A stretch of 64,000 nt of DNA from Sphaerisporangium album (GTDB taxonomy: Bacteria > Actinomycetota > Actinomycetes > Streptosporangiales > Streptosporangiaceae), in contig NZ_QOIL01000014.1 in NCBI RefSeq assembly GCF_003323745.1, positions 186,001 to 250,000 on the forward strand, written 5' to 3'. Position 1 is the first letter of the stretch; every line of letters begins with the position of its first letter. Below the pieces are notes generated by a model that worked only from the letters and a program-made list of their open reading frames with translations, had not been told where the DNA came from and did no database searches. Shown piece after piece: positions 9,134 to 40,012 of this stretch. A program made the translations under genes and the position numbers.

Positions 9134-9571
9134 ATGGCTGATCGCACCATCTCCAGCATCACGATCGGGGCCGAGCCCCCGGCCGTCGTGGCGGTCATCG
9201 CCGACTTCCCGTCCTACCCGCGGTGGGCGGGCCAGGTGAAGTCGGCGGAGGTCCTGTCGATGGGCGAGGACGGCCGTCCGGCGACCGTCCGGTTCGTCAT
9301 GGACGCCGGGGTGATCAGCGACGAGTACACCCTCGGCTACACCTGGCACGGCGACGAGGCCGTCGACTGGCGGATCGTCGAGTCCGGCAAGATGCTCTCG
9401 GGGCTGACCGGCAGCTACCGCCTCGCCGGGGCGGACGGCCGCACCGAGGTCACCTACGAGCTCGTCGTGGACCTGAAGGTCCCCATGATCGGCATGATCA
9501 AGCGCAAGGCCGAGAAGGTCATCGTCGACACCGCGCTCAAGGGGCTCAAGAAGCGCGTCGAGGGCCGATGA
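9134..9571 (+). CDS. SRPBCC (START-like) domain protein
   Basis: A 145-residue protein that is one SRPBCC/polyketide-cyclase-like fold, a hydrophobic-ligand-binding helix-grip. It begins MADRTISSITIGAEPPAVVA and has the usual FPSYPRW segment. No catalytic residue can be assigned. ATG 9134 is chosen because TACGGT (9122-9127) lies 6 nt upstream, which fits a leaderless start; GTG 9113 and ATG 9128 are also in frame. Its TGA overlaps the ArsA start (ATGA), so the two are translationally coupled. The constant pairing with an ArsA-type ATPase suggests lipid or hydrophobic-cargo handling, which is an inference. Confidence 0.85.
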   Translation: MADRTISSITIGAEPPAVVAVIADFPSYPRWAGQVKSAEVLSMGEDGRPATVRFVMDAGVISDEYTLGYTWHGDEAVDWRIVESGKMLSGLTGSYRLAGADGRTEVTYELVVDLKVPMIGMIKRKAEKVIVDTALKGLKKRVEGR

Positions 9572-10752
9572 GCGAGTCCGGCCCGAGGGTCCTGCTGTTC
9601 ACCGGCAAGGGGGGAGTCGGCAAGACCACCGTCGCCGCGGCCACGGCCACGCTCGCCGCCCGCCGGGGACGCAAGACGCTCGTGGTCTCGACCGACACCG
9701 CGCACTCCCTGGCCGACGCCCTCGGCGTGCCCGGGTCCGGGGAGCCCTCCGAGATCGCGCCCGCCCTCTACCTGCAGCAGGTCGACACCCAGAAGGCGCT
9801 CGAACGCCACTGGGGCGACCTTCGCGACTACGCCCAGGGCGTGCTCGCAGAGCTGGGCCTGGACGAGATCACCTCCGAGGAGCTCACGGTGCTGCCCGGC
9901 GCCGAGGAGGTCATGGCCCTGCTGGAGCTGAGCGAGCAGGTCCGCACCGGCCGCTGGGACGTCGTCGTGGTCGACTGCGCCCCCACGGCCGAGACGCTGC
10001 GCCTGCTCGCCCTCCCCGAGGCGCTCGACTGGCACGTCAACCGCCTGCTGCCCGCGGGCCGCAGGCTGCTGCGCGCCATCGCCCCCGTGATGCGCCACGT
10101 CACCCGGCTCAACCTCCCCGAGGACGCCGTGGTCAGCTCGGGCGAGCGGCTGCACACCGGGCTCATGGGCGTGCGCGACCTGCTGACCGGCCCCGCCGCC
10201 TCCGTGCGCCTCGTGCTCACCCCCGAGGCGGTCGTGGTGGCCGAGGCCCGCCGCACGTTCACCTCGCTCAGCCTCTACGGCTACCGCGTCGACGGCGTGG
10301 TCGCCAACCGCGTGTTCCCGGCCGAGGGGTCGGACGACTGGCGGCGCGGGTGGGTGGAGGCCCAGGCCCGCCACCTCGCCGCCGTCCACGAGTCCTTCGC
10401 GCCGCTGCCCGTCCACACGGTGCCCTACCTGCCCGCCGAGCCGGTCGGCGCCGAGTCGCTCGCCGCGCTGGCCGGCGAGCTGTACGGCGCGTCCGACCCG
10501 TTCGCGCCGCCCGTGGGCGAGCCGCCGCTGGCCGTCCGCGCCGAGGGCGGCGTGCACGAGCTGACCCTCGCCCTCCCGCTCGCGGACAGGTCCGACGTCG
10601 ACCTGGCGAGGAAGGGCGACGAGCTGATCGTCACCGCCGGGTCCTACCGCCGCGTGATCACCCTCCCCGCCGCCCTGGCCAGAAGATCGGTTCACGAGGC
10701 GGCGCTCCGCGACGGCCGCCTCCGGGTACGGTTCGAGGCAGGAGGGGCCTGA
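9568..10752 (+). CDS. ArsA/Get3-family ATPase
   Basis: A 394-residue P-loop ATPase of the ArsA/Get3 type. The deviant Walker A is GKGGVGKTT at residues about 11-19; the switch DTAHS and the later DCAPTAET segment are present. The C-terminal 70 residues (ADRSDVDLARKGDELIV onwards) form the small HSP20-like beta domain often fused to actinobacterial ArsA proteins. There is no arsenic gene nearby, and the Cys cluster used by arsenite pumps is not evident, so arsenite export is unlikely. It overlaps its neighbours by ATGA on both sides, forming an operon with the SRPBCC and sco2127-like genes. Confidence 0.9.
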   Translation: MSESGPRVLLFTGKGGVGKTTVAAATATLAARRGRKTLVVSTDTAHSLADALGVPGSGEPSEIAPALYLQQVDTQKALERHWGDLRDYAQGVLAELGLDEITSEELTVLPGAEEVMALLELSEQVRTGRWDVVVVDCAPTAETLRLLALPEALDWHVNRLLPAGRRLLRAIAPVMRHVTRLNLPEDAVVSSGERLHTGLMGVRDLLTGPAASVRLVLTPEAVVVAEARRTFTSLSLYGYRVDGVVANRVFPAEGSDDWRRGWVEAQARHLAAVHESFAPLPVHTVPYLPAEPVGAESLAALAGELYGASDPFAPPVGEPPLAVRAEGGVHELTLALPLADRSDVDLARKGDELIVTAGSYRRVITLPAALARRSVHEAALRDGRLRVRFEAGGA

Positions 10753-26342: not shown

Positions 26343-29300
26343 GTGCTGGTCGTGCACGGTACGTGGATCGGCGGCGTGCCCGCGCTGTGGGCGGAGGACA
26401 CCGCCGCGCACGGAACCACGCCGCCCCGCGGCGGGGACGGCACCGGTCGTCGCGATGAGGTTTCCGGCGCGGCCCTCGGCGGGGCCAGGGAGAACGGCGG
26501 CGGGGAACGCGGCAGAGTTCGTGGCGGGGCGCGTCCGCACCCCTTCGCCGCGACGGCGGAGGCCCTGACGGCGGCGCTCGGCGAGGCCGCCGCCCGTGCC
26601 ACGCCGGTCCAGGCCACGCTCCTGCTCCCCGGGTCCGCCAAGGCCCCGCTGCCCTCGCCGGAGTCCGGGCTGGACGGCGCCGCCCGCGTCCCCCGCGTCT
26701 CCCCGTGGCGCGTCCCCGCCCTGGCCGTGCCCCCCGCCGACGCGCTCGCCCTGCTGGAGAATCTCTCCTCCCCGGCCCCCGGCCGGCCGGGCGCGCCCGA
26801 GTGGGGACCCGGCGCCTCGCTGCGCTACCTCGCCGTCGTCGCCGAGCACGCCACCGCGCTCGTCCGGCGCGGACGCGTGCTGCCCCAGCTCGTTGCCGAG
26901 GACGGCGTCCACGCCGCCCGCTGGACCCCGGTGATCACCGGCGCCGACGCCACCGCCTTCCGCGACCTGGCCACCGCGATGCCCCCGGTCTGCCGCGCCG
27001 CCGCCGGGGACCGCCCCGCGGCGGCTGGGAAGCGCCCCGCCGCCGAGGGGCGCCCCGCCTCCCAGGTGCTCCGCGAGGTCATGACCGCCCTGGCCGACGC
27101 CGCCACCCGCCGCTCGCTGCCCGACCGCCTGCTGCGCGGCAACCGTCCCGGCCCGAGGAGCCCCCTGCCCGAACGCTGGCTGTTCGCCCTCACCGGCGAC
27201 GACACCACGCTGCCCGGCGTCGCGGCGGGGGAGGCCGAGACCCTCGGCGGCGCGCTGCGCGACTGGCTGCACGCCGCCCACCAGCTCGAAGGCCCCATCC
27301 GCGTCTGCTTCCGCCTCGGCGAGCCCGAGGGTGACGCCGACACCTGGGAGCTGGAGTTCGCCCTCCAGTCCGTGGACGACCCGAGCCTGTACGTCCCCGC
27401 GTCGCTGCTGTGGGACGGCGAGCGCGTCCCCGGCCTGCCCCGCCGCCCCGACGAGACGCTGCTGGCGGGCCTCGGCCGCGCCGTGCGGCTCTGCCCCGAG
27501 CTGCACACGGCCCTGCGCGATCCGCGCCCGTCCGGCATGGTGGTGGACACCGCCTGGGCCTTCGGCTTCCTGCGCCGCTCCGCGCCCCTGCTCCAGGCCG
27601 CCGGGTACGGCGTCCGCCTGCCCGCCTGGGCCGGGCGCAAGGCCCTCGGCCTCAAGCTCACCACCCGCTCCCGCACGTCCACGCGTACGCGCGCGGCGGC
27701 GGGCCAGGGGTTCGGCCTGGACGAGCTGGTGGACTTCCGGGTCGACCTGGCCGTCGGCGACCACACGATCGGCGAGGAGGAGCTCGAAGAGCTCGCCCGG
27801 CTGAAGGTGCCGCTCGTGCGCGTGCGCGGCCAGTGGGTCGAGCTGGACGACCGCCAGCTCAAGGCCGCGCTGTCGGTGATGGAGCGGCGCCGCGCGGGCG
27901 AGATGACCGTCGCCGAGGTGATCCAGGAGGTCGTCACCGGCGGCGACGAGGAACTGCCGCTGGTCGGCGTGGACGCCGACGGCCCGCTCGGCGACCTCCT
28001 CAGCGGCGAGGCCGACCGGCGCCTCACCACGGTCCAGACCCCCGCGACGTTCAACGGAGCCCTCCGCCCCTACCAGCAACGCGGCCTGTCCTGGCTGACC
28101 TTCCTCTCCCAAATCGGACTCGGCGGGATACTCGCGGACGATATGGGATTGGGGAAGTGCGTCGCGCCGGATACGCCGGTGTTCGTCGAGGGAATCCTGC
28201 GGGAGGCGGCGGAGGTCTGGTCACTGTACGCCCAGGACTCGACCTTCGACGGTGAGGGCGAATGGGCCCGCCTGGCCAAGCCCCTCACGACCGCCTCCAT
28301 CGACGCGTCCGGATGCATGGTCACGGCCGAGATCACGCGTCTCTATCGTCAGCGGGTGCGGGAGAAGCTACGGCGTGTGCGACTCGACGACGGCAGTGAG
28401 ATCCTCATCACCGCACGTCATCGCGTGCTCGGGGTCCATGGCTGGGTCAACGATGTCGTCCCCGGTGACCGCGTCTGCGTGCCCGGACGTCTGCCCTGGC
28501 GAGGTGATCGCGTTGACCCCGACCTCGCGGTGCTGCTCGCCTGGCAGATCAGCGAGGGGCACGAAGAGCGGAAGGCGGACCTCCGCATCACCCAGAAGAA
28601 CCGCGCCGTTCTGGAGTCGCTACGCGAACGGGTTCTGGCCCTGGGCCGCCGCCTGGGCCTGAACTTCAATCAACCGACCATCCGCGCGAGCAGGACGGTG
28701 CACGAACTGCGGATGTGCAGCATCGACTATGCGACGTTCCTGGCCCGGCACGATTACCAGTGGGGATGCCGCTCGGCGGCCAAACGGATTCCCGATCTGA
28801 TCATGTCGGCGGACGACGAGACGGTGAAACTCTTTCTGCGCGAGTACTTCACGGCCGAGGGAAGCGTCGTGCCGGGCACTCGCCTGATCGAGATCTCCTC
28901 CGCGTCCCCGCACATCATGCGTCAGCTCTCGGTCCTCCTGCGCCGTTTCGGTATCTGGCTGCGGGTCTCGGACGTGATGAAGTGCGCGACCAACGGATCC
29001 GGGATCAAGCGGCCTTACCAGATAGGCATTCTGGGCGGCCCCGCCCTGTGCGCATTCCGCTCCCTCATCGGGTTTTCCGATGAGACCAAGCAGGCCAAGC
29101 TCGCGCTGATCTGCGAGAAGGTCGCCAACTCGAATGTGGAAGGCGTACCAGGGCACGACCTCCTGTCCGCCGCGTACAGGCTGACCGGGCTGCCGCAGCG
29201 CCACTTCGGTGTCGGCACGGTCTATTTCGCGGGTACCCAAGAACTTTCCCGCCCGACGGCTCAGGCGGCGGTGGCGGCGATGGACCGGATGCTGTCCGGC

Positions 29301-30872
29301 GAGGCGGAAAGGGAGTACCAGGCACGGCCGCCAACGAGGTGGACGCCGGCGATATTGAAGGCCTATTCCGACCTGGACAGGCGGGCGTTGGGCCATATCC
29401 GCGACGAACTCGCCGGTCGCGCGGCGCGGGAGGTCTTCTACGCGCGCGTGAAGTCCGTGGAGGAGGTCGATTACGAGGGATACGTATACGACTTCGAGGT
29501 CGCCGGCCACCACAATTTCGTCGCGGGGGGCATGCTGTGTCACAACACCGCACAGACGCTGTCGCTTCTGCTGGAGGAACGGGTCGCCGGGTCGCCGGGG
29601 CCGACGTTGCTCGTCTGTCCGATGTCGTTGTTGAGCAACTGGCAGAAGGAGGCCGAGCGGTTCGCGCCCTCTTTGCGGGTTTATGTGCACCACGGGGGGA
29701 CGCGGAAGCGGGAGGAGGAGCTCGTGGCGGCCGTGGGGGAGGCCGACCTGGTGGTCACCACGTACGGGACGGCGTTGCGGGACGCCGAGGTGCTCCGGCG
29801 GTTCGCGTGGGGGCGGGTGGTCTGTGACGAGGCGCAGGCGATCAAGAACAGCGGGGCGCGGCAGGCGCAGGCCGTCCGGTCGATCCCCGCGCGCACGCGG
29901 CTGGCGCTGACCGGCACCCCGGTCGAGAACCACCTGGCCGAGCTGTGGTCGATCATGGAGTTCTGCAACCCGGGCCTGCTCGGGCCGGCCAAGCGGTTCC
30001 GCGACCGCTACCAGGAGCCGATCGAGGCGCGCGGCGACGAGCAGGCCGCGCGGGCGCTGAAGCGGGCCACGCAGCCGTTCGTCCTGCGCCGCCTGAAGAC
30101 CGACAAGACGATCATCTCCGACCTTCCCGACAAGCTTGAGATGAAGGTGTGGTGCACGCTCACGCCGGAGCAGGCCAGCCTCTACCAGGCCGTCGTCAAC
30201 GACATGATGACCAGGATCGACCAGACCGAGGGCATCGAGCGGCGCGGCAACGTGCTCGCCACGATGACCCGGCTGAAGCAGGTCTGCAACCACCCCGCCC
30301 ACCTGCTCAAGGACGGCTCGCGGCTGGCCGGTCGTTCGGGCAAGCTCGCCCGGCTGGAGGAGCTGGCCGAGGAGGTCGTCGAGGAGGGGGACAAGGCGCT
30401 GGTCTTCACCCAGTACGCCGAGTTCGGCTCCCTGCTCCAGCCCTACCTCGCCGCCCACCTCGACCGTCCCGTGCTGTGGCTGCACGGCGGTCTGACCAAG
30501 AAGAAGCGGGACGAGCTCGTCGAGCGCTTCCAGAGCGACGACGAGCCGATGATCTTCCTGCTGTCGCTCAAGGCGGCGGGCACCGGCCTCAACCTCACCG
30601 CCGCCAACCACGTGATCCACGTCGACCGCTGGTGGAACCCGGCCGTCGAGGACCAGGCCACCGACCGGGCGTTCCGCATCGGGCAGACCAGGAACGTCCA
30701 GGTCAGGAAGTTCGTCTGCGCCGGGACGCTGGAGGAGCGCATCGACGAGATGATCGAACGCAAGAAGGCGCTGGCCGAGAGCGTCGTCGGGGCCGGCGAG
30801 GACTGGATCGCCGACCTGACGACCGAGCAGCTGCGCGAGCTGTTCCGCCTCGGCCCCGAGGCGGTGAGCTGA
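26343..30872 (+). CDS. SNF2-family DEAD/H helicase, intein-containing precursor
   Basis: A 1509-residue precursor; removing the 463-residue intein leaves a 1046-residue bacterial SNF2/HepA-type ATPase. The N-terminus (LVVHGTWIGGVPALWAED) and the SNF2-associated region (about 455-520) are typical of actinobacterial members. The Walker A is DDMGLGK at 599-605 and continues T1069 after the intein. Motif II is CDEAQ (about 1160), then GTPVENHLAELWSI, FTQYAEF, LSLKAAGTGLNL and the ATDRAFRIGQTRNVQV motif VI. It probably remodels nucleoprotein or restarts RNA polymerase; the target is unknown. GTG start with a G-rich ribosome site. The next gene encodes its usual SWIM partner. Confidence 0.93.
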   Translation: MLVVHGTWIGGVPALWAEDTAAHGTTPPRGGDGTGRRDEVSGAALGGARENGGGERGRVRGGARPHPFAATAEALTAALGEAAARATPVQATLLLPGSAKAPLPSPESGLDGAARVPRVSPWRVPALAVPPADALALLENLSSPAPGRPGAPEWGPGASLRYLAVVAEHATALVRRGRVLPQLVAEDGVHAARWTPVITGADATAFRDLATAMPPVCRAAAGDRPAAAGKRPAAEGRPASQVLREVMTALADAATRRSLPDRLLRGNRPGPRSPLPERWLFALTGDDTTLPGVAAGEAETLGGALRDWLHAAHQLEGPIRVCFRLGEPEGDADTWELEFALQSVDDPSLYVPASLLWDGERVPGLPRRPDETLLAGLGRAVRLCPELHTALRDPRPSGMVVDTAWAFGFLRRSAPLLQAAGYGVRLPAWAGRKALGLKLTTRSRTSTRTRAAAGQGFGLDELVDFRVDLAVGDHTIGEEELEELARLKVPLVRVRGQWVELDDRQLKAALSVMERRRAGEMTVAEVIQEVVTGGDEELPLVGVDADGPLGDLLSGEADRRLTTVQTPATFNGALRPYQQRGLSWLTFLSQIGLGGILADDMGLGKCVAPDTPVFVEGILREAAEVWSLYAQDSTFDGEGEWARLAKPLTTASIDASGCMVTAEITRLYRQRVREKLRRVRLDDGSEILITARHRVLGVHGWVNDVVPGDRVCVPGRLPWRGDRVDPDLAVLLAWQISEGHEERKADLRITQKNRAVLESLRERVLALGRRLGLNFNQPTIRASRTVHELRMCSIDYATFLARHDYQWGCRSAAKRIPDLIMSADDETVKLFLREYFTAEGSVVPGTRLIEISSASPHIMRQLSVLLRRFGIWLRVSDVMKCATNGSGIKRPYQIGILGGPALCAFRSLIGFSDETKQAKLALICEKVANSNVEGVPGHDLLSAAYRLTGLPQRHFGVGTVYFAGTQELSRPTAQAAVAAMDRMLSGEAEREYQARPPTRWTPAILKAYSDLDRRALGHIRDELAGRAAREVFYARVKSVEEVDYEGYVYDFEVAGHHNFVAGGMLCHNTAQTLSLLLEERVAGSPGPTLLVCPMSLLSNWQKEAERFAPSLRVYVHHGGTRKREEELVAAVGEADLVVTTYGTALRDAEVLRRFAWGRVVCDEAQAIKNSGARQAQAVRSIPARTRLALTGTPVENHLAELWSIMEFCNPGLLGPAKRFRDRYQEPIEARGDEQAARALKRATQPFVLRRLKTDKTIISDLPDKLEMKVWCTLTPEQASLYQAVVNDMMTRIDQTEGIERRGNVLATMTRLKQVCNHPAHLLKDGSRLAGRSGKLARLEELAEEVVEEGDKALVFTQYAEFGSLLQPYLAAHLDRPVLWLHGGLTKKKRDELVERFQSDDEPMIFLLSLKAAGTGLNLTAANHVIHVDRWWNPAVEDQATDRAFRIGQTRNVQVRKFVCAGTLEERIDEMIERKKALAESVVGAGEDWIADLTTEQLRELFRLGPEAVS
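28158..29546 (+). mobile_element. intein with LAGLIDADG-type endonuclease domain
   Basis: This in-frame insertion of 463 codons splits the SNF2 Walker A between Lys605 and Thr. It has every splicing block: Cys1 (CVAPDTPVF), block B T85-A-R-H88, block F (YVYDFEVAGHHNF), and the C-terminal GGMLCHN ending His-Asn before Thr+1. Two LAGLIDADG-like helices are at residues 123-134 (LAVLLAWQISEG) and 227-236 (LREYFTAEGS), about 104 apart, each with an acidic residue, so the homing endonuclease may be active. Its codon use and GC are visibly lower than in the flanking exteins, which supports transfer. The host ATPase cannot work unless splicing occurs. Confidence 0.93.
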
Positions 30873-31855: not shown

Positions 31856-34297
31856 CTAGGAGCGCTTCCAGAACGGGCTCCGGGGTGCGTGGCCCCGCCC
31901 GGGCTCGTCCGGCTCGCCGGCGCCGGTCAGCTCGGTGAGGACGGTGATGGCCCGTTGCCACAGGGCGTCCACGTCGGTGCCCGGGGTGGTCTCGCAGGCC
32001 GTGAGGTCGGTGGCCAGGGAGGCCAGGCGGTCCTGGCCGCCCAGGTAGGTCACCAGTGCCGACAGGCGGCTGCCGAGGTCGGCGAGGTAGCGCAGGCGCT
32101 CGGCCCGGGGCAGCGACGACGCGGCGCGCAGACGCGCGAGCTCGTCGGCGAGCTGCGGCCGTACGGCGTCCGGCGAGCGGTGGATCGGCGGAGGCGGGGC
32201 CATCTTCGGGCTCGGCGCCCGGAAGAACGACCGGCCGCGCCCGGGGGCCGACCGCGGGGCCGGCATCGGCGCGGGGGGACCTCCGGCCACCACGCTCGGC
32301 GCAGCGCCGCCGAAGGTGGGAGCGGCGCCGGGCGGCGTCAGGCCCTCGGATTCGGCGTTGAAGACCGCCGGAGCCGCCGCGGTGAACGCCGCCGGCATCG
32401 AGGCCGCCATCGGCATGGCCGGGGCCGGCATGTCCCAGCCGCTCGGCATCTCCACCGGCTGGACGACGCGGTGGCGCGGCTCGCCGTCGGCGACCACGCG
32501 CGTGTCGACCGCGACGAAGGCCGTGAACCTGCACAGCACGCCGTGCCGCAGCGAGGTCGCGACGATCTCGCGCTCCAGGTCGTGCTCGCCGGTCGCGTAG
32601 CGGTCCTCCAGGCGGCGCAGGTGCGCCCTGGCCCAGATCGCCCGCGGGGCCTCCCCCTCGGCGGGCGTCCCGGTCAGCCGCCGCTCCCAGGGGGTACCGC
32701 CGGTGGCCGTCCCGTGGACGGTGATCGCGCCGCTCGCGGGGCCGCGGAAGCGTCCGGAGACGGTGAGCGGCACCCCGGAGTAGAGCGAGCCGAGGTGGGT
32801 CACGGTGCCGGGGAGCACGTCCAGGCCTTCCGGCTTGAGGGACAGGCCGGTGACCAGCGGGGAGCCGATCCTGCGGTGGATGTGCTCCATCGCCTCGTCC
32901 AGCCGGTCCTCCGACTCCACCAGCTCGCAGCGGCCCGCGCCGAGCCCGGCCAGCCTGCCGAGGAACCCGGCGTTGACGGCCCGGTCGACACCGACGGTGT
33001 GGACCCGCACGGCCGCGAGCCGCGCGCCGAGGCGTTCGAGGATCTGGTCCTCGTTGCCGACCTGCCCGTCCGTGACCAGCACGAGCACGCGCTCGCGCGA
33101 GGAGTCGTCCAGCAGGCCGAGCCCCTGCTCCATCGGCTGGAGGATCTCGGTGCCGCCGCGGGCCTCCAGCCGCGCGAGGTGCTCGACCGCGCGGTAGCGG
33201 TTGCGGTCGGACGCCGGGACGAGCCCCGCGTCGAGGCGGTCCGGGCGCTCCACCACCGAGTCGAACGACAGGACGGCGAACCGGTCGGCGGAGGTCAGCG
33301 TGTCGACGATGCGCGCGGCGGCGCGGCGTGCGGCGACCATCTTCCACCCGGCCATGCTGCCCGAGCGGTCCAGCAGCAGGACCACGTCCCTCGGCCTGCG
33401 CTCGCCCTGGCCATCGCCGGACGGGGGGAGCACGGTGAGGGTGAAGGTGCCGTCGCCGTCGGTCGTGTCCGGCTCGTCGTCGTCCTTCGCCCGGTCCGGG
33501 ACGAGGGCCAGCGCGCTGGAGGCGGCGAACTCCAGCCGCAGCACGAAGTCGCGGTCCAGGCGCTCACCCGGCCGCAGGCTCACAGTGTCGTCCTCGCGGG
33601 TCACGACGTGCAGGCTGGAGCGCATCTCGCGCAGGTCCAGCCCGGCGGGGTCGACGCGGGCCGTCAGCGACAGGCGTACGGGGTTCGGGAATCCGGGCAG
33701 CAGCACCGGGGGGCTGATCCGCGAGGCGTCCGGGACGGCGTCGGTGTCGGGCGCCACGCCGTCGCCCGCCGAGCGCTCGTCCAGCGGCGTCCCCGGGATG
33801 TACCGGGGGGCGACCACGAGGGGGAAGCGGAACGTCGCGGCGCCGTCCTCGTACGGCAGCGGCTGGCTGAGCGCCAGGCGGACGGTCACCCGCTCGCCCG
33901 GCAGGATGTTGCCCACCCGGATGGTGAAGACGTCGGGACGCTCCTCCTCGGCGATGGCGGCCCTGCGCCCCTCGGCCAGGGCACGGTCGTAGTCCTGCCG
34001 GGCCTCGCCGCGCTCCTTCAGCACGCCCTCGACCACGCGGCCGTCGGCCTCCATGCGGAAGGACGTCACCGCGGCGCGGTCGGGCAGCGGGAAGACGTAG
34101 GTCGCCTCCAGCGGCACGTCGAACGGATTGCGAAAGCCCTGGGCCACCCCGACGCCCGAGGTCAGGCCGGTGATCAGCGCCTCCACCTCGACGCTCTCCA
34201 GCGGCAGGTTGCCCCGCGCGGTCCGCAGCGCGCCCAGTCCCGCGTCCGGCGTCGGCGCGTACTCACCGGGCTTCAACGAGGTGATCTGAACAGTCAT
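31856..34297 (-). CDS. VIT and von Willebrand factor A domain protein
   Basis: An 813-residue protein. Residues about 35-170 form a VIT domain (VFPLPDRAAVTSFRMEADGR, RPDVFTIRVGNILPGE). Residues about 310-490 form a vWA domain with an intact MIDAS (LLLDRSGSM, then Thr and Asp in VTDGQVGNEDQI). A Pro/Ala-rich linker and a helical C-terminus follow. There is no signal peptide or TM, so it is cytoplasmic, unlike most animal VIT-vWA proteins. Its ATG overlaps the MerR stop (ATGA), so the two are translated together. Function is unknown; metal-dependent protein binding is expected from the MIDAS. Confidence 0.87.
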   Translation of the reverse strand: MTVQITSLKPGEYAPTPDAGLGALRTARGNLPLESVEVEALITGLTSGVGVAQGFRNPFDVPLEATYVFPLPDRAAVTSFRMEADGRVVEGVLKERGEARQDYDRALAEGRRAAIAEEERPDVFTIRVGNILPGERVTVRLALSQPLPYEDGAATFRFPLVVAPRYIPGTPLDERSAGDGVAPDTDAVPDASRISPPVLLPGFPNPVRLSLTARVDPAGLDLREMRSSLHVVTREDDTVSLRPGERLDRDFVLRLEFAASSALALVPDRAKDDDEPDTTDGDGTFTLTVLPPSGDGQGERRPRDVVLLLDRSGSMAGWKMVAARRAAARIVDTLTSADRFAVLSFDSVVERPDRLDAGLVPASDRNRYRAVEHLARLEARGGTEILQPMEQGLGLLDDSSRERVLVLVTDGQVGNEDQILERLGARLAAVRVHTVGVDRAVNAGFLGRLAGLGAGRCELVESEDRLDEAMEHIHRRIGSPLVTGLSLKPEGLDVLPGTVTHLGSLYSGVPLTVSGRFRGPASGAITVHGTATGGTPWERRLTGTPAEGEAPRAIWARAHLRRLEDRYATGEHDLEREIVATSLRHGVLCRFTAFVAVDTRVVADGEPRHRVVQPVEMPSGWDMPAPAMPMAASMPAAFTAAAPAVFNAESEGLTPPGAAPTFGGAAPSVVAGGPPAPMPAPRSAPGRGRSFFRAPSPKMAPPPPIHRSPDAVRPQLADELARLRAASSLPRAERLRYLADLGSRLSALVTYLGGQDRLASLATDLTACETTPGTDVDALWQRAITVLTELTGAGEPDEPGRGHAPRSPFWKRS

Positions 34298-35187: not shown

Positions 35188-35655
35188 ATGGCCCAGATCA
35201 CCAGCCCGCTTCCGGCCGACAAGCAGAAGATCGTGGGCGAGGCGCTCCACGGCGCGCTCATCGATCTGCTCGACCTCTCGCTCGTGGGCAAGCAGGCCCA
35301 CTGGAACCTGGTCGGCCGCAACTTCCGGTCGCTGCACCTCCAGCTCGACGAGATCGTCGCCCTGGCGCGCAACGGCGCCGACAACGCGGCGGAACGCGCG
35401 GTGGCCGTCGGCGTGAACCCGGACGGGCGCGCCGCGACGATCGCCCGCGACACGCACCTCCAGCAGCTCGACTTCGGCTACATAGAGGACGGCAAGGTCG
35501 TCGCGGTGTTCACCGAGATACTCGGGGGGATCGTCGCCCGCATGCGCGAGCGCATCGAGGCGACCGACGACGCCGACCTCGTCACCCAGGACCTGCTCAT
35601 CGAGGTCACCGAGGAACTGGAGAAGCAGCACTGGATGATCCAGGCGCAGCGCTGA
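35188..35655 (+). CDS. dps: Dps-family ferritin-like DNA-protection protein
   Basis: A 155-residue Dps. Dps proteins assemble as dodecamers, oxidise and store iron and shield DNA during stress. The ferroxidase motif is intact (KQAHWNLVGRNFRSLHLQLDEI, with the paired His and the Asp/Glu ligands), and the C-terminus EVTEELEKQHWMIQAQR is typical. GAGGAGG gives a strong ribosome site. The gene diverges from the MerR/VIT-vWA operon across the dyad at 35081-35105, which may regulate it too. Confidence 0.93.
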   Translation: MAQITSPLPADKQKIVGEALHGALIDLLDLSLVGKQAHWNLVGRNFRSLHLQLDEIVALARNGADNAAERAVAVGVNPDGRAATIARDTHLQQLDFGYIEDGKVVAVFTEILGGIVARMRERIEATDDADLVTQDLLIEVTEELEKQHWMIQAQR

Positions 35656-35709: not shown

Positions 35710-38700
35710 TCAGAGGAGGTCGCGCGCGAGGCAGGCGACCGAGGGCGGGGCGGACAGCAGGACGCGCAGCGCGTCCCAGCGGGCCGTCCCGGCCTTGCCG
35801 TTCCTGAGCAGCCCCGCCTCGGTGAGAGCCTCGGCCCATTCTTGCCGTCCAGGGACGGCCGCGGCCCGTTCCAGCCGTTCCAGGACGGTGCGCCCCTCGC
35901 CGGGGCGCTCGGAGTCCTGGCATTCCGTCGGCTCCGCGTCCCGGCCTGCCGGGGGCTCGGCGTCGCGGGCGAACAGCGACAGCAGGTGCGGCCACCGCAC
36001 CGTGAGCACCGCCAGCTTGGCGACCTCGTCGTCGCTCGCGCGCGCCGCCCCGGCCAGCGCCCGCCGATAGGTGACGAACGAGTAGAAGCGGAACACGTTC
36101 ACGTACCTCTTCAGCTCCCGCGGATTGCTCAGCGTCAGCGCGGGGAGCACCCGCTCGATCGCCGCGTACGCGTTCTCGTCGCTGTAGATGTCGTCGTAGA
36201 CGCGGTCGGCGGCGAGCCGCGCCGCCGCCGTGAGCCCGCCGATCGAGTCGTGCGGCGGCCTCGGGGACGTGCGGGCCGCCCGTCCCGGGGCGGCGGCCTC
36301 CGTCCTGAGGGCTCCCGTCCTGGTCAGGAAGGTGATCGGCGTCCGCCGCGAGAACAGGCCCGGCTTGGGCGCGCCCGCCCACGTGCCCGGGGCGGCCGGC
36401 GGCCCGACGGCGTCCTGCACGCGGCGGGCGACCGTGTCGAGGTCCTCGGCGGTCGGGCGCAGGGCCCGGATGGCGGACTCCATGCGGTCGACCAGCTCCG
36501 GGTCCGGCTGCGCGCCCTGCCCGCCCGCGCCGGCCGTGTCCCGCGCGTCCGACGCGACCCCCTCGCGCGCGGGCGGGACGTCGAGCAGGGTGCGCAGGTA
36601 CGCGGGGATCCGCTCGCCGTCGTCCAGCAGCGGCACGCTCAGCGGAAGCTGGATGATCTTTTCCAGGAACCGCCACCCGAGCCCCGAGCGCTCCTCGGCG
36701 CCGGAGGGAAGCGTGCGCGCGAGGTCCCGGTAGGCGACCTCGACGTGCGCCGCCACGACCTCCGGCTCCATCGCCAGCACGAACACGCAGTTGGGGAACT
36801 CCCCGGCCAGGAACAGGTTCACGGCCTCGATGACCTGCGCGACCGTGCCCGGCGAGCACCGGTCGAGGTCGTCCACGAACACCACCAGCGGCCGCTCCTC
36901 GGTCGCCACCATGCCGAGCACGCGGCGCATGTCGGTCTGCACCAGGTGCAGGAACCCCGTCCGTGACCGGTATCCCGGGTCGGGCACCAGCTGCTGGGCC
37001 TGCGCCGGCGACCCGAGCAGGTCGGGCTGGCGCACCAGCTTGCGGAAGGCCGTGTCCGCCGACTCGCCCAGGAACCGCGTCAGGCGCACGGCCGCGGCGG
37101 CCATGAGGAGCACCGACCCGCCGGACCCCACCGCGGCGGCCGTCCCGCGCAGCAGCGAGCCCACCGCCGGGAACAGCGCGCACGCGGCCAGCGACGCGCC
37201 CGTGAACAGCAGCGTCGCGCAGAGCGCCAGGGCGACGGGCAGCAGGCGCGTCGCCGCCAGCCCGTACCCACGCCGGCGCACGGCCTCGCGGTCGACCCGG
37301 GACAGGTTCAGCGTCAGCCAGAAGCGCTCGCGCTCACCGCGCGGCAGCCGGCCGGTGACCTGGCTGATGATCTCGTGGGCCAGGCCCGCCCAGACCTGCT
37401 CGCCGTTCTGGTACATCCACGGGTTGAACCAGACCGTCGGCCGCCAGTCGGCGGGCCGCATCGGCAGCTCGCCGGGCGTCGCGCGGTCGGGGTCGTCCTC
37501 CTCCGGCCGTTTGGCGCGGGCCAGCACCTCGGCGTTGGTCACCCGTCCCCGCCGCCTCCGGGCGCGGCGGGGGACGTCCGTCCGGCCGAGGTGGATCTCG
37601 GTGGCCCGGTCCTCGGCGGCGCCGGGGTCCAGCAGGTCCTGGATCATGCGCATCAGCGACGTCTTGCCCGCCCCCCAGGGGCCTTTCACGCCGATCGTGA
37701 GCGGCGGGCGGGTGTCGGGGTGGCGGATGAACGCGGCGACGGCCTCGGCGTGCACGCGGTGGCCGAGCCGGTCCTGGAGCGTCCACCGGTCGCCGGTGAG
37801 CCGGGTGCGGGGCCGTACGGGACGGGTGGCCGCGCGGCGGCGGCGCAGCAGGGCCGACACGTGCGCGGGCTCGCCCGCCTCCAGCCTGCCCGCGACGGCC
37901 TGCCGGATCGCCGGGCCCGCGAGGGGGGTGTCGTGCCCGAGCAGCCCCCAGGCGCGCAGCTCGCGCAGGGCCTCCTCCGGCGAGGCGCCCTCGGCGAGCA
38001 GTCGGGCGGCCTCCGGGGTGAGCGGCTCGTCCTCCTCCAGCAGCGCGGCCCGGCGCAGGAGCTGCCGCGCGTCCGGCCCGAGGTGCACCTCGTAGATCCT
38101 GTTCACCAGCTCGGCGGCCGACATCGGCGGCACGGCGTCGCCGAGGACGGCCAGGCGGGCGAGCGCGGTCCCGAACTCCTCGCCGAGGTCGTGGACGGCG
38201 CGGCGCGGGGACGCGACGCCGATCAGCTCGCCCTCGCCGTAGGTCAGCAGGAAGGGCGTGCGGTCCGCGCCGGCGCTGCGCTCCTGGGCGTACCGGAACA
38301 GGTCGCCGACCGAGATGGTGCCGTCGCGGTCGAGGTCCGCCTCGCCGGACAGGATGCCGTCGGCGAGTATCGCGGTGAGCGACACCGGGCGGCCGTGCCG
38401 CGCGGGGACGATCGCGCTGGTGGTGAGGGCGGCGGCGGCCGCCACGGGCTCGCCGCGCACGGGCAGGCGGCCGGTGGCCTCGTGCGGCGGGCCGGGGCTC
38501 GCCGTCACCAGCCAGCCGAAGTCCACGATCAGCAGCAGCGCCGCGCCGTCGGAGCGCTCGACGCGGCGGGCGAACTCGTCCATCAGCGCGCCGAACTCCC
38601 GGCGTCCCCACCCCGACTCGGTCGACCAGCGCACGAGCAGCAGGTCGCCGGGCTCGACCGTGTCGAGGAAGTCGCCGACCCGCCGGTGGTCGGCCGCGTC

Positions 38701-38862
38701 GCACTCGGCGGTCTCGACCGCGTACCCCTCGGCGGTGAGCGCGTGCACCAGCCTGCGGTCGGCCCCGGCGGCCCGGGTGCCGGCCTCGCGGTCGAGGAAG
38801 ACCAGCGCCCTGCGCGTCCTGATCGCCGGAGCGGGCGGGGCTGAAATGATCAACGAGGTCAT
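35710..38862 (-). CDS. KAP P-loop NTPase with degenerate caspase-like N-terminal domain
   Basis: A 1050-residue protein. Residues about 18-220 follow the actinobacterial caspase/metacaspase pattern strand by strand (RALVFLD; VEPGDLLLVRW; LLLIVDFG; LTAILADGILSGEADLDRDG). The catalytic SGHG and DCChSG motifs are replaced (WSTESGW, VDFGWLV), so protease activity is unlikely. A helical segment (225-345) leads to a KAP NTPase with Walker A GPWGAGKTS near 395 and Walker B VVFVDDLDRCS near 662. Two membrane helices (about 540-595) sit between them, as in known KAP proteins. The C-terminus has the family NPRELKRYVNVFRFY. AGGGGAG precedes the ATG. KAP NTPases are often in phage-defence or signalling systems; the role here is inferred. 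Confidence 0.82.
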   Translation of the reverse strand: MTSLIISAPPAPAIRTRRALVFLDREAGTRAAGADRRLVHALTAEGYAVETAECDAADHRRVGDFLDTVEPGDLLLVRWSTESGWGRREFGALMDEFARRVERSDGAALLLIVDFGWLVTASPGPPHEATGRLPVRGEPVAAAAALTTSAIVPARHGRPVSLTAILADGILSGEADLDRDGTISVGDLFRYAQERSAGADRTPFLLTYGEGELIGVASPRRAVHDLGEEFGTALARLAVLGDAVPPMSAAELVNRIYEVHLGPDARQLLRRAALLEEDEPLTPEAARLLAEGASPEEALRELRAWGLLGHDTPLAGPAIRQAVAGRLEAGEPAHVSALLRRRRAATRPVRPRTRLTGDRWTLQDRLGHRVHAEAVAAFIRHPDTRPPLTIGVKGPWGAGKTSLMRMIQDLLDPGAAEDRATEIHLGRTDVPRRARRRRGRVTNAEVLARAKRPEEDDPDRATPGELPMRPADWRPTVWFNPWMYQNGEQVWAGLAHEIISQVTGRLPRGERERFWLTLNLSRVDREAVRRRGYGLAATRLLPVALALCATLLFTGASLAACALFPAVGSLLRGTAAAVGSGGSVLLMAAAAVRLTRFLGESADTAFRKLVRQPDLLGSPAQAQQLVPDPGYRSRTGFLHLVQTDMRRVLGMVATEERPLVVFVDDLDRCSPGTVAQVIEAVNLFLAGEFPNCVFVLAMEPEVVAAHVEVAYRDLARTLPSGAEERSGLGWRFLEKIIQLPLSVPLLDDGERIPAYLRTLLDVPPAREGVASDARDTAGAGGQGAQPDPELVDRMESAIRALRPTAEDLDTVARRVQDAVGPPAAPGTWAGAPKPGLFSRRTPITFLTRTGALRTEAAAPGRAARTSPRPPHDSIGGLTAAARLAADRVYDDIYSDENAYAAIERVLPALTLSNPRELKRYVNVFRFYSFVTYRRALAGAARASDDEVAKLAVLTVRWPHLLSLFARDAEPPAGRDAEPTECQDSERPGEGRTVLERLERAAAVPGRQEWAEALTEAGLLRNGKAGTARWDALRVLLSAPPSVACLARDLL

Positions 38863-39097: not shown

Positions 39098-40012
39098 TCA
39101 GAGGTCTCGTGACCACGTCTGGACGGTGACGTCCGCGCCGTAGGAACGCTCGTCGTGCTGCTCGTCCAGCTGGAAGCCCGCCCGCTGGTAGATGCGCCGG
39201 GCGGAGGCCAGCACCTCGACGGTCATCAGGACGATGCGCGCGTACCCGGCGCGCCGGGCGAAGGCCAGGCACTCCTCGACCAGGCGCCCGCCGATGCCCA
39301 TACCCCGGGTGGACGGCTCGACCAGCAGGAGCCGCAGCCGCGCCGTCCGGTCGTCGTCCCTGACGCACATGATCGAGCCCGCGCGCTCGCCCTCCACTTC
39401 GGCGATCCAGCACGCCTCGCGCTTGGGGTCGTGGTCGCGGACGTAGTCGGCGACGATGCGCGCGGTCATGGCCTCGAACGTCTCGTCCCAGCCGTACTCG
39501 TCGGCGTACAGCACGCCGTGGCGGTGGACTATCCAGCCGAGGTCGCCGGGGCGGGGCGGGCGGATGACGTACGGCTCGCGGCCCGCGCCGTCGTCGCCGA
39601 GGATGCGCTGGATGGCGGCCATGCTGGACTTCAGCCGCCGCCGGTCCTCTGCGGCGAGGGGTGCCAGCAGGTCGCGCACGTCCGACGCCGACGCCGCGTC
39701 CAGGACCCGCCACACCTCAAGACCGTGCGGGCTAAGCCGCACGACCTGCCGCCGGGCGTCGGCGGCCGAGCGCGCCCGCGTGACGAGCCCGCCGGACTCG
39801 AACCGCGCCAGCATGCGGCTGAGGTAGCCGGCGTCGAGGCCGAGCAGCCGCCGCAGCTCGCCCGTCTCCATCTCCTCGTGCGCCCGCAGCTCGAACAGGA
39901 CCCTGGCCTCGGTCAGGGAGTACGGCGTGTCGTGCATGCCGGCGCCGAGGACTCCGATCACGCGCGTGTAGAAGCGGTTGAAGGTGCGGACGTCGGCGAC
40001 GAGCTCTTCCAT
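39098..40012 (-). CDS. MarR regulator fused to GNAT acetyltransferase
   Basis: A 304-residue bifunctional protein. Residues 1-145 are a MarR winged helix (SLTEARVLFEL, LLGLDAGYLSRMLARFESGGLV). Residues about 155-304 are a GNAT acetyltransferase with the acetyl-CoA loop RGMGIGGRLVEECL. This fusion is a known family (MarR-GNAT), usually acting on amino acids or drugs; the substrate is unknown here. ATG 40012 has GGAG upstream; a TTG at 40024 is possible but lies before that site. A pair of overlapping palindromes covers its promoter, indicating autoregulation. It diverges from the lactonase gene. Confidence 0.9.
   Translation of the reverse strand: MEELVADVRTFNRFYTRVIGVLGAGMHDTPYSLTEARVLFELRAHEEMETGELRRLLGLDAGYLSRMLARFESGGLVTRARSAADARRQVVRLSPHGLEVWRVLDAASASDVRDLLAPLAAEDRRRLKSSMAAIQRILGDDGAGREPYVIRPPRPGDLGWIVHRHGVLYADEYGWDETFEAMTARIVADYVRDHDPKREACWIAEVEGERAGSIMCVRDDDRTARLRLLLVEPSTRGMGIGGRLVEECLAFARRAGYARIVLMTVEVLASARRIYQRAGFQLDEQHDERSYGADVTVQTWSRDL

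Follow-up and report, generated by a model that had tools for sequence, protein, structure and literature searches.

The systems that come closest to the gene analyzed here belong largely to bacterial conflict biology, and we take them as the main texts of the papers cited describe them. Bacterial caspase-EACC1 and VMAP systems include many inactive effector caspases, about 70% of the caspases in the effector position of VMAP systems being inactive (Kaur et al. 2020, PMC7159879). In predicted counter-invader systems, STAND NTPases may be displaced by KAP (Kaur et al. 2021, PMC8195603), and Tmn, a KAP NTPase with two transmembrane domains, blocks phages by a mechanism described as unexplored (PMC11846954). 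Pseudo-orthocaspases, in turn, have been surveyed in PMC6426788. We analyzed a stretch of 64,000 nucleotides (the window) from contig NZ_QOIL01000014.1 of Sphaerisporangium album, an actinobacterium from soil whose genome has a size of 9.3 Mb. A gene on the minus strand of the window, at positions 35710 to 38862, encodes a 1050-aa protein, P0001, in which a caspase-like domain that has lost its catalytic residues is joined through a winged-helix-like linker to a KAP NTPase.

The nearest detectable caspases are the actinobacterial EACC1-type enzymes (NF047832), which likewise carry variable domains behind an N-terminal caspase (PMC7159879). In contrast to those, the caspase of P0001 is dead, and the 235 bp that separate its gene from a MarR-GNAT gene at 39098 leave no room for an EACC1 gene on the 5' side; no gene was called in this gap (gene calls only, with no EACC1 model search). 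KAP is not among the fused domains named in the text of PMC7159879, its figures and source data aside. The VMAP ternary systems of the same paper resemble P0001 in using a catalytically inactive caspase domain, there in a conflict setting, but their inactive caspases are fused to the vWA of a MoxR-vWA pair, whereas that of P0001 is fused to KAP in a locus without those genes. P0001 also shares with the pseudo-orthocaspases a bacterial p20-like domain without the His-Cys dyad; those, as PMC6426788 presents them, were collected with a p20 HMM and mostly carry Tyr-Ser, whereas P0001 escapes the Pfam C14 model, has its His loop deleted and carries Gly for Cys. The KAP P-loop domain is common to PifA, QatA and Tmn, the last also with two transmembrane domains, but no pseudo-caspase or winged-helix linker is reported for them in the main texts consulted. 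In the STAND-like systems with KAP, the KAP domain similarly serves as a switch, with peptidase, TIR or kinase effectors, but those systems are tied together by EADs (PMC8195603, main text), and Pfam detects no EAD in P0001. The dead-caspase-KAP fusion was not found described in the main texts of the literature searched. The original prediction had called the protein one not known as a described system; this holds for the fusion itself, but its ingredients are not new, since inactive conflict caspases, pseudo-orthocaspases and KAP in place of STAND switches have all been published.

The anatomy of P0001 is firm. Its open reading frame contains no internal stop, the ATG start is closely preceded by a GGGGAG stretch, and a codon-usage gene call favours this frame over the overlapping high-GC open reading frames; the protein is 66 to 74% identical to named Sphaerisporangium proteins. 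All parts lie on the minus strand: the pseudo-caspase domain at aa 17 to 229 (38176 to 38814), the linker at about aa 244 to 348 (about aa 244 to 345 at 37828 to 38133) and the KAP NTPase module at aa 353 to 1050 (35713 to 37806). The Pfam model KAP_NTPase (PF07693) matched aa 371 to 926 with an E value of 9.1e-31 and 107.6 bits against a cut-off of 20. Between Walker A (GPWGAGKT, aa 394 to 401, 37660 to 37683) and Walker B (VVFVDDLDR, aa 660 to 668, 36859 to 36885) lie two hydrophobic segments, at aa 543 to 561 (37180 to 37236; mean hydropathy 2.06) and aa 574 to 592 (37087 to 37143; mean 1.64), which were called by Kyte-Doolittle hydropathy only. The KAP P-loop NTPase with two membrane segments between its Walker motifs was thus recovered as originally predicted.

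No member of a 40-sequence ortholog alignment matched Pfam Peptidase_C14 (PF00656) at an E value of 1 or better, and we compared the domain with caspases by profile. The active-caspase set consisted of 17 actinobacterial sequences, obtained from 34 loci after removal of 16 that failed the motif pattern and one duplicate. Alignment of the orthologs with this set by hhalign gave 97.6% over 180 columns, and a second run gave a colinear match of 98.65% over 206 columns. For the N-terminal part of the domain, before the EF-hand-like segment, the raw scores were 16.3 and 25.3; among the controls, none of 25 unrelated neighbour families scored above 9.6 and none of 50 column shuffles above 8.9, and a reversed profile reached 2.3. 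The stronger evidence for a caspase relationship comes from the reverse test, in which the domain profile was run through 341 genomes of the family. After the orthologs there was a gap, followed by 66 weaker places with E values from 5e-9 to 1e-4 (three pieces of ortholog frames excluded). The 20 of these places that were fetched, chiefly ones reaching the Cys region, were caspases without exception, scoring 273 to 363 bits against the active-caspase profile and carrying the catalytic His in 20 and the Cys in 19 cases. In several of them the alignment starts at profile position 16-20 and ends at 183-204, and DFGW faces DCC. A PDB search with the active-caspase profile reached the MALT1 paracaspase at 1.1e-6, and the single P0001 sequence gave no meaningful PDB match. 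These data suggest that aa 17 to 229 are a relative of the EACC1-type caspase fold, and they bear out the prediction of a degenerate caspase-like N-terminal domain whose segments follow those of caspases in order.

In the merged alignment, the column of the catalytic Cys holds Gly in all 40 orthologs, whereas all 17 active caspases have Cys there; these active rows were partly chosen by their D-x-C motif, so that their Cys count is not independent, as the count from the 20 fetched matches is. The Asp two positions before this column is retained in 57 of 57 rows. The Gly belongs to the DFGW motif (aa 114 to 117, 38512 to 38523), which occupies the position of the active D-x-C in 40 of 40 aligned orthologs and is invariant in all 49 ortholog frames, some species being counted twice. 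The column of the catalytic His is gapped in all 40 orthologs and falls inside a deletion of about 15 columns, which in P0001 lies between S80 and T81 of RWSTES (aa 78 to 83, 38614 to 38631), at the strand end from which the catalytic-His loop is missing. The segments WSTESGW, VDFGWLV and GILSGEADLDRDGTISVGDL are all present in P0001 exactly as first recorded. The claim that both catalytic motifs had been replaced therefore stands in that both residues are lost, the Cys to Gly, but not in its wording for the His, which was deleted with its surroundings and not replaced in place. The domain is a pseudo-caspase, with neither the His nor the Cys of the Peptidase C14 (PF00656) active site. Farther along, an EF-hand-like loop, DLDRDGTISVGD (aa 176 to 187, 38302 to 38337), is common to the active caspases, 15 of 17 of which fit its motif, as do 27 of 40 orthologs.

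The dead domain is kept in related species. In 50 of the 341 genomes, among them 11 of 11 of the own genus, the profile matched open frames 822 to 1881 aa long at E values no worse than 4e-46; in the Nonomuraea group (g4), of which many genomes were searched, only 5 had strong matches. Of the 49 ortholog frames, 40 were aligned, the remainder being duplicates, near-identical Herbidospora sequences, the truncated L043, and L038, which the start pattern did not pick up. In 36 pairwise comparisons of nine congeners, the dead caspase had a median dN/dS of 0.270, KAP one of 0.305 and the linker one of 0.393. The dead caspase domain is kept under purifying selection and is not decaying. Of the 60 KAP sequences examined, 52 had intact Walker A and B patterns, among them 47 orthologs; the other 8, all non-orthologs, fell outside the Walker A pattern used, several of them reading APWGAGKT.

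The linker of P0001 had no Pfam match. Its profile was homologous to the region preceding KAP in sister proteins, at 98.0% for the kinase forms and 94.6% for six mostly NB-ARC forms, with a weak 48% for the cold-shock form; the corresponding scores were 76.9, 47.0 and 28.6, compared with 17.7 for the best of 25 unrelated families. In a Pfam scan of the N termini of 10 sister KAP proteins, NB-ARC was above cut-off in L072, L076 and L079, a protein kinase was found in L077 and L080, a cold-shock domain in L082, and AAA_16 with weak TIR and NB-ARC in L078; L074, L075 and L081 showed no N-terminal domain. The N-terminal signalling domains (NB-ARC, protein kinase, cold-shock) thus appear to be swappable ahead of a shared linker-KAP core. 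We also observed that two Nonomuraea orthologs, L069 and L073, have largely lost the linker and retain both the dead caspase and KAP.

A test of the homologues for active versions had been suggested, and one candidate was found. In Phytohabitans flavus (L084), a Peptidase_C14 caspase (50.5 bits) that carries SCHG and LDCCYSG is joined to the same type of KAP; the caspase is of the EACC1-associated type (NCBIfam NF047832, 162.5 bits against a cut-off of 140). The case is qualified by its KAP, which is split across two open frames (L084:7101-9257 and 9257-10483), so that the fusion may be broken or the split a sequencing error. A KAP tree of 33 rows left L084 unplaced, and a single clade with the dead form was neither shown nor rejected (approximately unbiased test, p 0.359). 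Further active caspase-KAP fusions were seen neither in 394 genomes of the class, with four candidates per genome scored, nor in 35 genomes presumed to be around the Phytohabitans family.

The orthologs occupy one conserved chromosomal neighbourhood in the Streptosporangiaceae. Counts were made over 40 ortholog loci with flanks of up to 8 kb, some of them shorter, and are lower bounds. A cluster that we take to be Dps-like, represented in the window by a plus-strand gene at 35188 to 35655, was near the gene in at least 35 of the 40 loci, and was next to it and convergent in at least 26; a Pfam scan of a slightly longer stretch around the window copy gave no match, and this gene is separate from the protein. 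VIT-vWA was found in at least 33 loci, MerR in at least 31, a lactonase-like gene in at least 29 and MarR-GNAT in at least 28, and a PhoX-like gene was the preceding gene in at least 28. In the window, the VIT and vWA protein at 31856 to 34276 (minus strand) adjoins a MerR-type gene, a pair conserved in many relatives, with no MoxR beside it. Farther off, an open reading frame at 26343 to 30872 (plus strand), presumably for an SNF2-type helicase, contains an insert of 463 aa at 28158 to 29546, within Walker A, that we assume to be an intein; it splits the frame as GLGK / CVAPDT...MLCHN / TAQTL, and tblastn against the ortholog and relative loci gathered found no copy of it.

We propose that P0001 is a KAP NTPase that is anchored in the membrane and works as a switch, under the control of a caspase domain without proteolytic activity, a reading that we consider evenly balanced between right and wrong. 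By analogy, sensing or docking is the probable task of the dead caspase module. From the sequence we infer a mechanism in which this domain would bind a peptide, a protein or another ligand, or dock a partner, around the former active-site face that bears DFGW. The winged-helix-like linker, of a kind found after NB-ARC NTPases, would relay the signal to the KAP domain, where ATP binding or hydrolysis would lead to assembly at the membrane, with a membrane change or the recruitment of a partner as the output. The protein would have originated in a modular pool of caspase-, NB-ARC- and kinase-KAP proteins linked to conflict systems and would in the Streptosporangiaceae now be a fixed chromosomal gene; therefore, the signal may be stress or invasion. 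A more specific version, which we hold tentatively and with less confidence, is a vertically kept receptor in which a caspase fold without His loop and Cys, rebuilt around DFGW, would form the ligand-binding head of the membrane KAP switch, amounting to an apoptosis-like module without any protease in genomes without a detectable caspase. Several observations weigh against the proposal. Ligand sensing by the dead caspase is supposed by analogy, and in 13 of 40 orthologs the EF-hand-like loop, which might be a sensing element, does not fit the motif used. Because L069 and L073 keep both other domains without most of the linker, the latter is not strictly required as a relay, and the conserved neighbourhood names no pathway. 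The caspase relationship is also uneven along the domain: the hhalign score is owed mostly to the C-terminal part, which contains the EF-hand-like loop and alone gave 98.2%, the N-terminal part reached a weak 3.7% against the same caspase part and 32% against the full profile, and a PDB search with the domain profile found nothing below an E value of 0.1 (best, 0.14).

This unevenness, together with the failure of Peptidase_C14 to match any member, is what would be expected of an unrelated alpha/beta domain that had converged on the EF-hand-like segment; we regard such an origin as extremely improbable, since the alignment is colinear over 206 columns, the N-terminal part scored above every control, and the fetched next-best genome matches were caspases throughout, several with DFGW opposite DCC. 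Hardly more probable is a cFLIP-like regulator, in which the dead caspase would pair with and control an active caspase elsewhere in the cell. The own genome does hold one Peptidase_C14 protein, and EACC1-type caspases occur in 33 of 50 ortholog genomes, but their rate is no different where the gene is absent (181 of 291 genomes; Fisher p 0.64, hand tally). Moreover, 16 of the 17 ortholog genomes without an EACC1-type caspase also lacked a Peptidase_C14 match; with neither an EACC1-type caspase (E of 1e-10 or better) nor Peptidase_C14 (E of 0.001 or better) in these 16 of 50 genomes, the dead caspase needs no such partner, as judged by searches that did not extend to CHAT or to other clan CD proteases. 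The Peptidase_C14 protein of the own genome (L002, C45:68938-69618) is a caspase that shows HG and LDCCHSG and is fused to a region that looks by eye like a protein kinase. The recurrence of Dps-like, VIT-vWA and MerR genes over the 40 loci and the presence of the gene throughout its own genus would fit an ordinary regulator of stress or of the envelope that acts together with the conserved genes around it (Dps-like, MerR, VIT-vWA, MarR-GNAT, PhoX-like) and has no part in immunity. This we think rather improbable: the Dps-like gene is convergent and outside any operon, the neighbours are separate transcription units or lie on other strands with no functional tie, and the gene is dispensable in the Nonomuraea group, where so few genomes have strong matches.

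Phage defence by P0001 is possible by analogy with known KAP proteins. In its explicit form, P0001 would be a membrane NTPase like Tmn, PifA or QatA whose dead caspase, as a decoy or guard for phage factors, would cause the infected hyphal compartment to stop growing or to die; we judge this unlikely, while giving it more weight than a role in ordinary stress. In PADLOC, the KAP part of P0001 matched QatA (2.1e-24), PifA (4.6e-19) and PDC-S20 (1.3e-12), and Tmn itself, as described in PMC11846954, is a phage-blocking KAP NTPase with two transmembrane domains. The sister KAP of Actinomadura chibensis (L072) is the fourth gene of a VMAP-type operon, after Trypsin-EAD2-VMAP-M0-VMAP-C, MoxR-like AAA and NB-ARC genes (L072:661-10097); its third (NB-ARC) gene had no vWA match, so that a complete ternary set is not demonstrated. 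The same three gene clusters precede KAP in L075:1935-9944 and L079:619-10127, as assigned by cluster without a Pfam scan, and inactive caspases are common in the VMAP effector position according to the text of PMC7159879. Against this, P0001 reached only 103.5 bits against the NCBIfam QatA model NF041923, whose cut-off is 600, and is not a Qat member. The homologues share a single conserved chromosomal locus and not a defence island or mobile element, as seen over the 40 loci, a PADLOC scan of window neighbours, and phage and plasmid searches. P0001 had no match in phages, and four plasmid records matched part of its KAP only, at a coverage of 39% or less. None of 11 window neighbours scanned, VIT-vWA and MarR-GNAT included and the SNF2 gene left out, matched PADLOC at an E value of 0.001 or better, nor did the PhoX-like gene of L042. 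VMAP, MoxR and vWA are not found together beside the gene in the window, where VIT-vWA lies nearby without MoxR, and VMAP-C was not found in the own genome, a weak negative, as control genomes were equally silent. Enrichment of the homologues in defence islands, proposed as a test by the original prediction, was not seen; the outcome that the prediction had named as contradicting it, homologues confined to conserved housekeeping contexts, is largely what was observed. The broader suggestion of a signalling or phage-defence protein keeps its plausibility through the sister KAP in a VMAP-type operon and the known KAP defence proteins, but defence is not demonstrated.

If a KAP switch controlled by a dead caspase is the correct description of P0001, a bacterial caspase fold would serve an NTPase switch purely for sensing or as a scaffold, and the signalling role of caspases would be separable from cleavage. 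The pseudo-caspase class is missed by the Pfam C14 model, so that surveys using this model undercount it. The 16 genomes that carry the dead domain and no detectable caspase make a protease-free role directly testable by deletion. P0001 would then be a testable example of a caspase fold put to a new use that involves no proteolysis.

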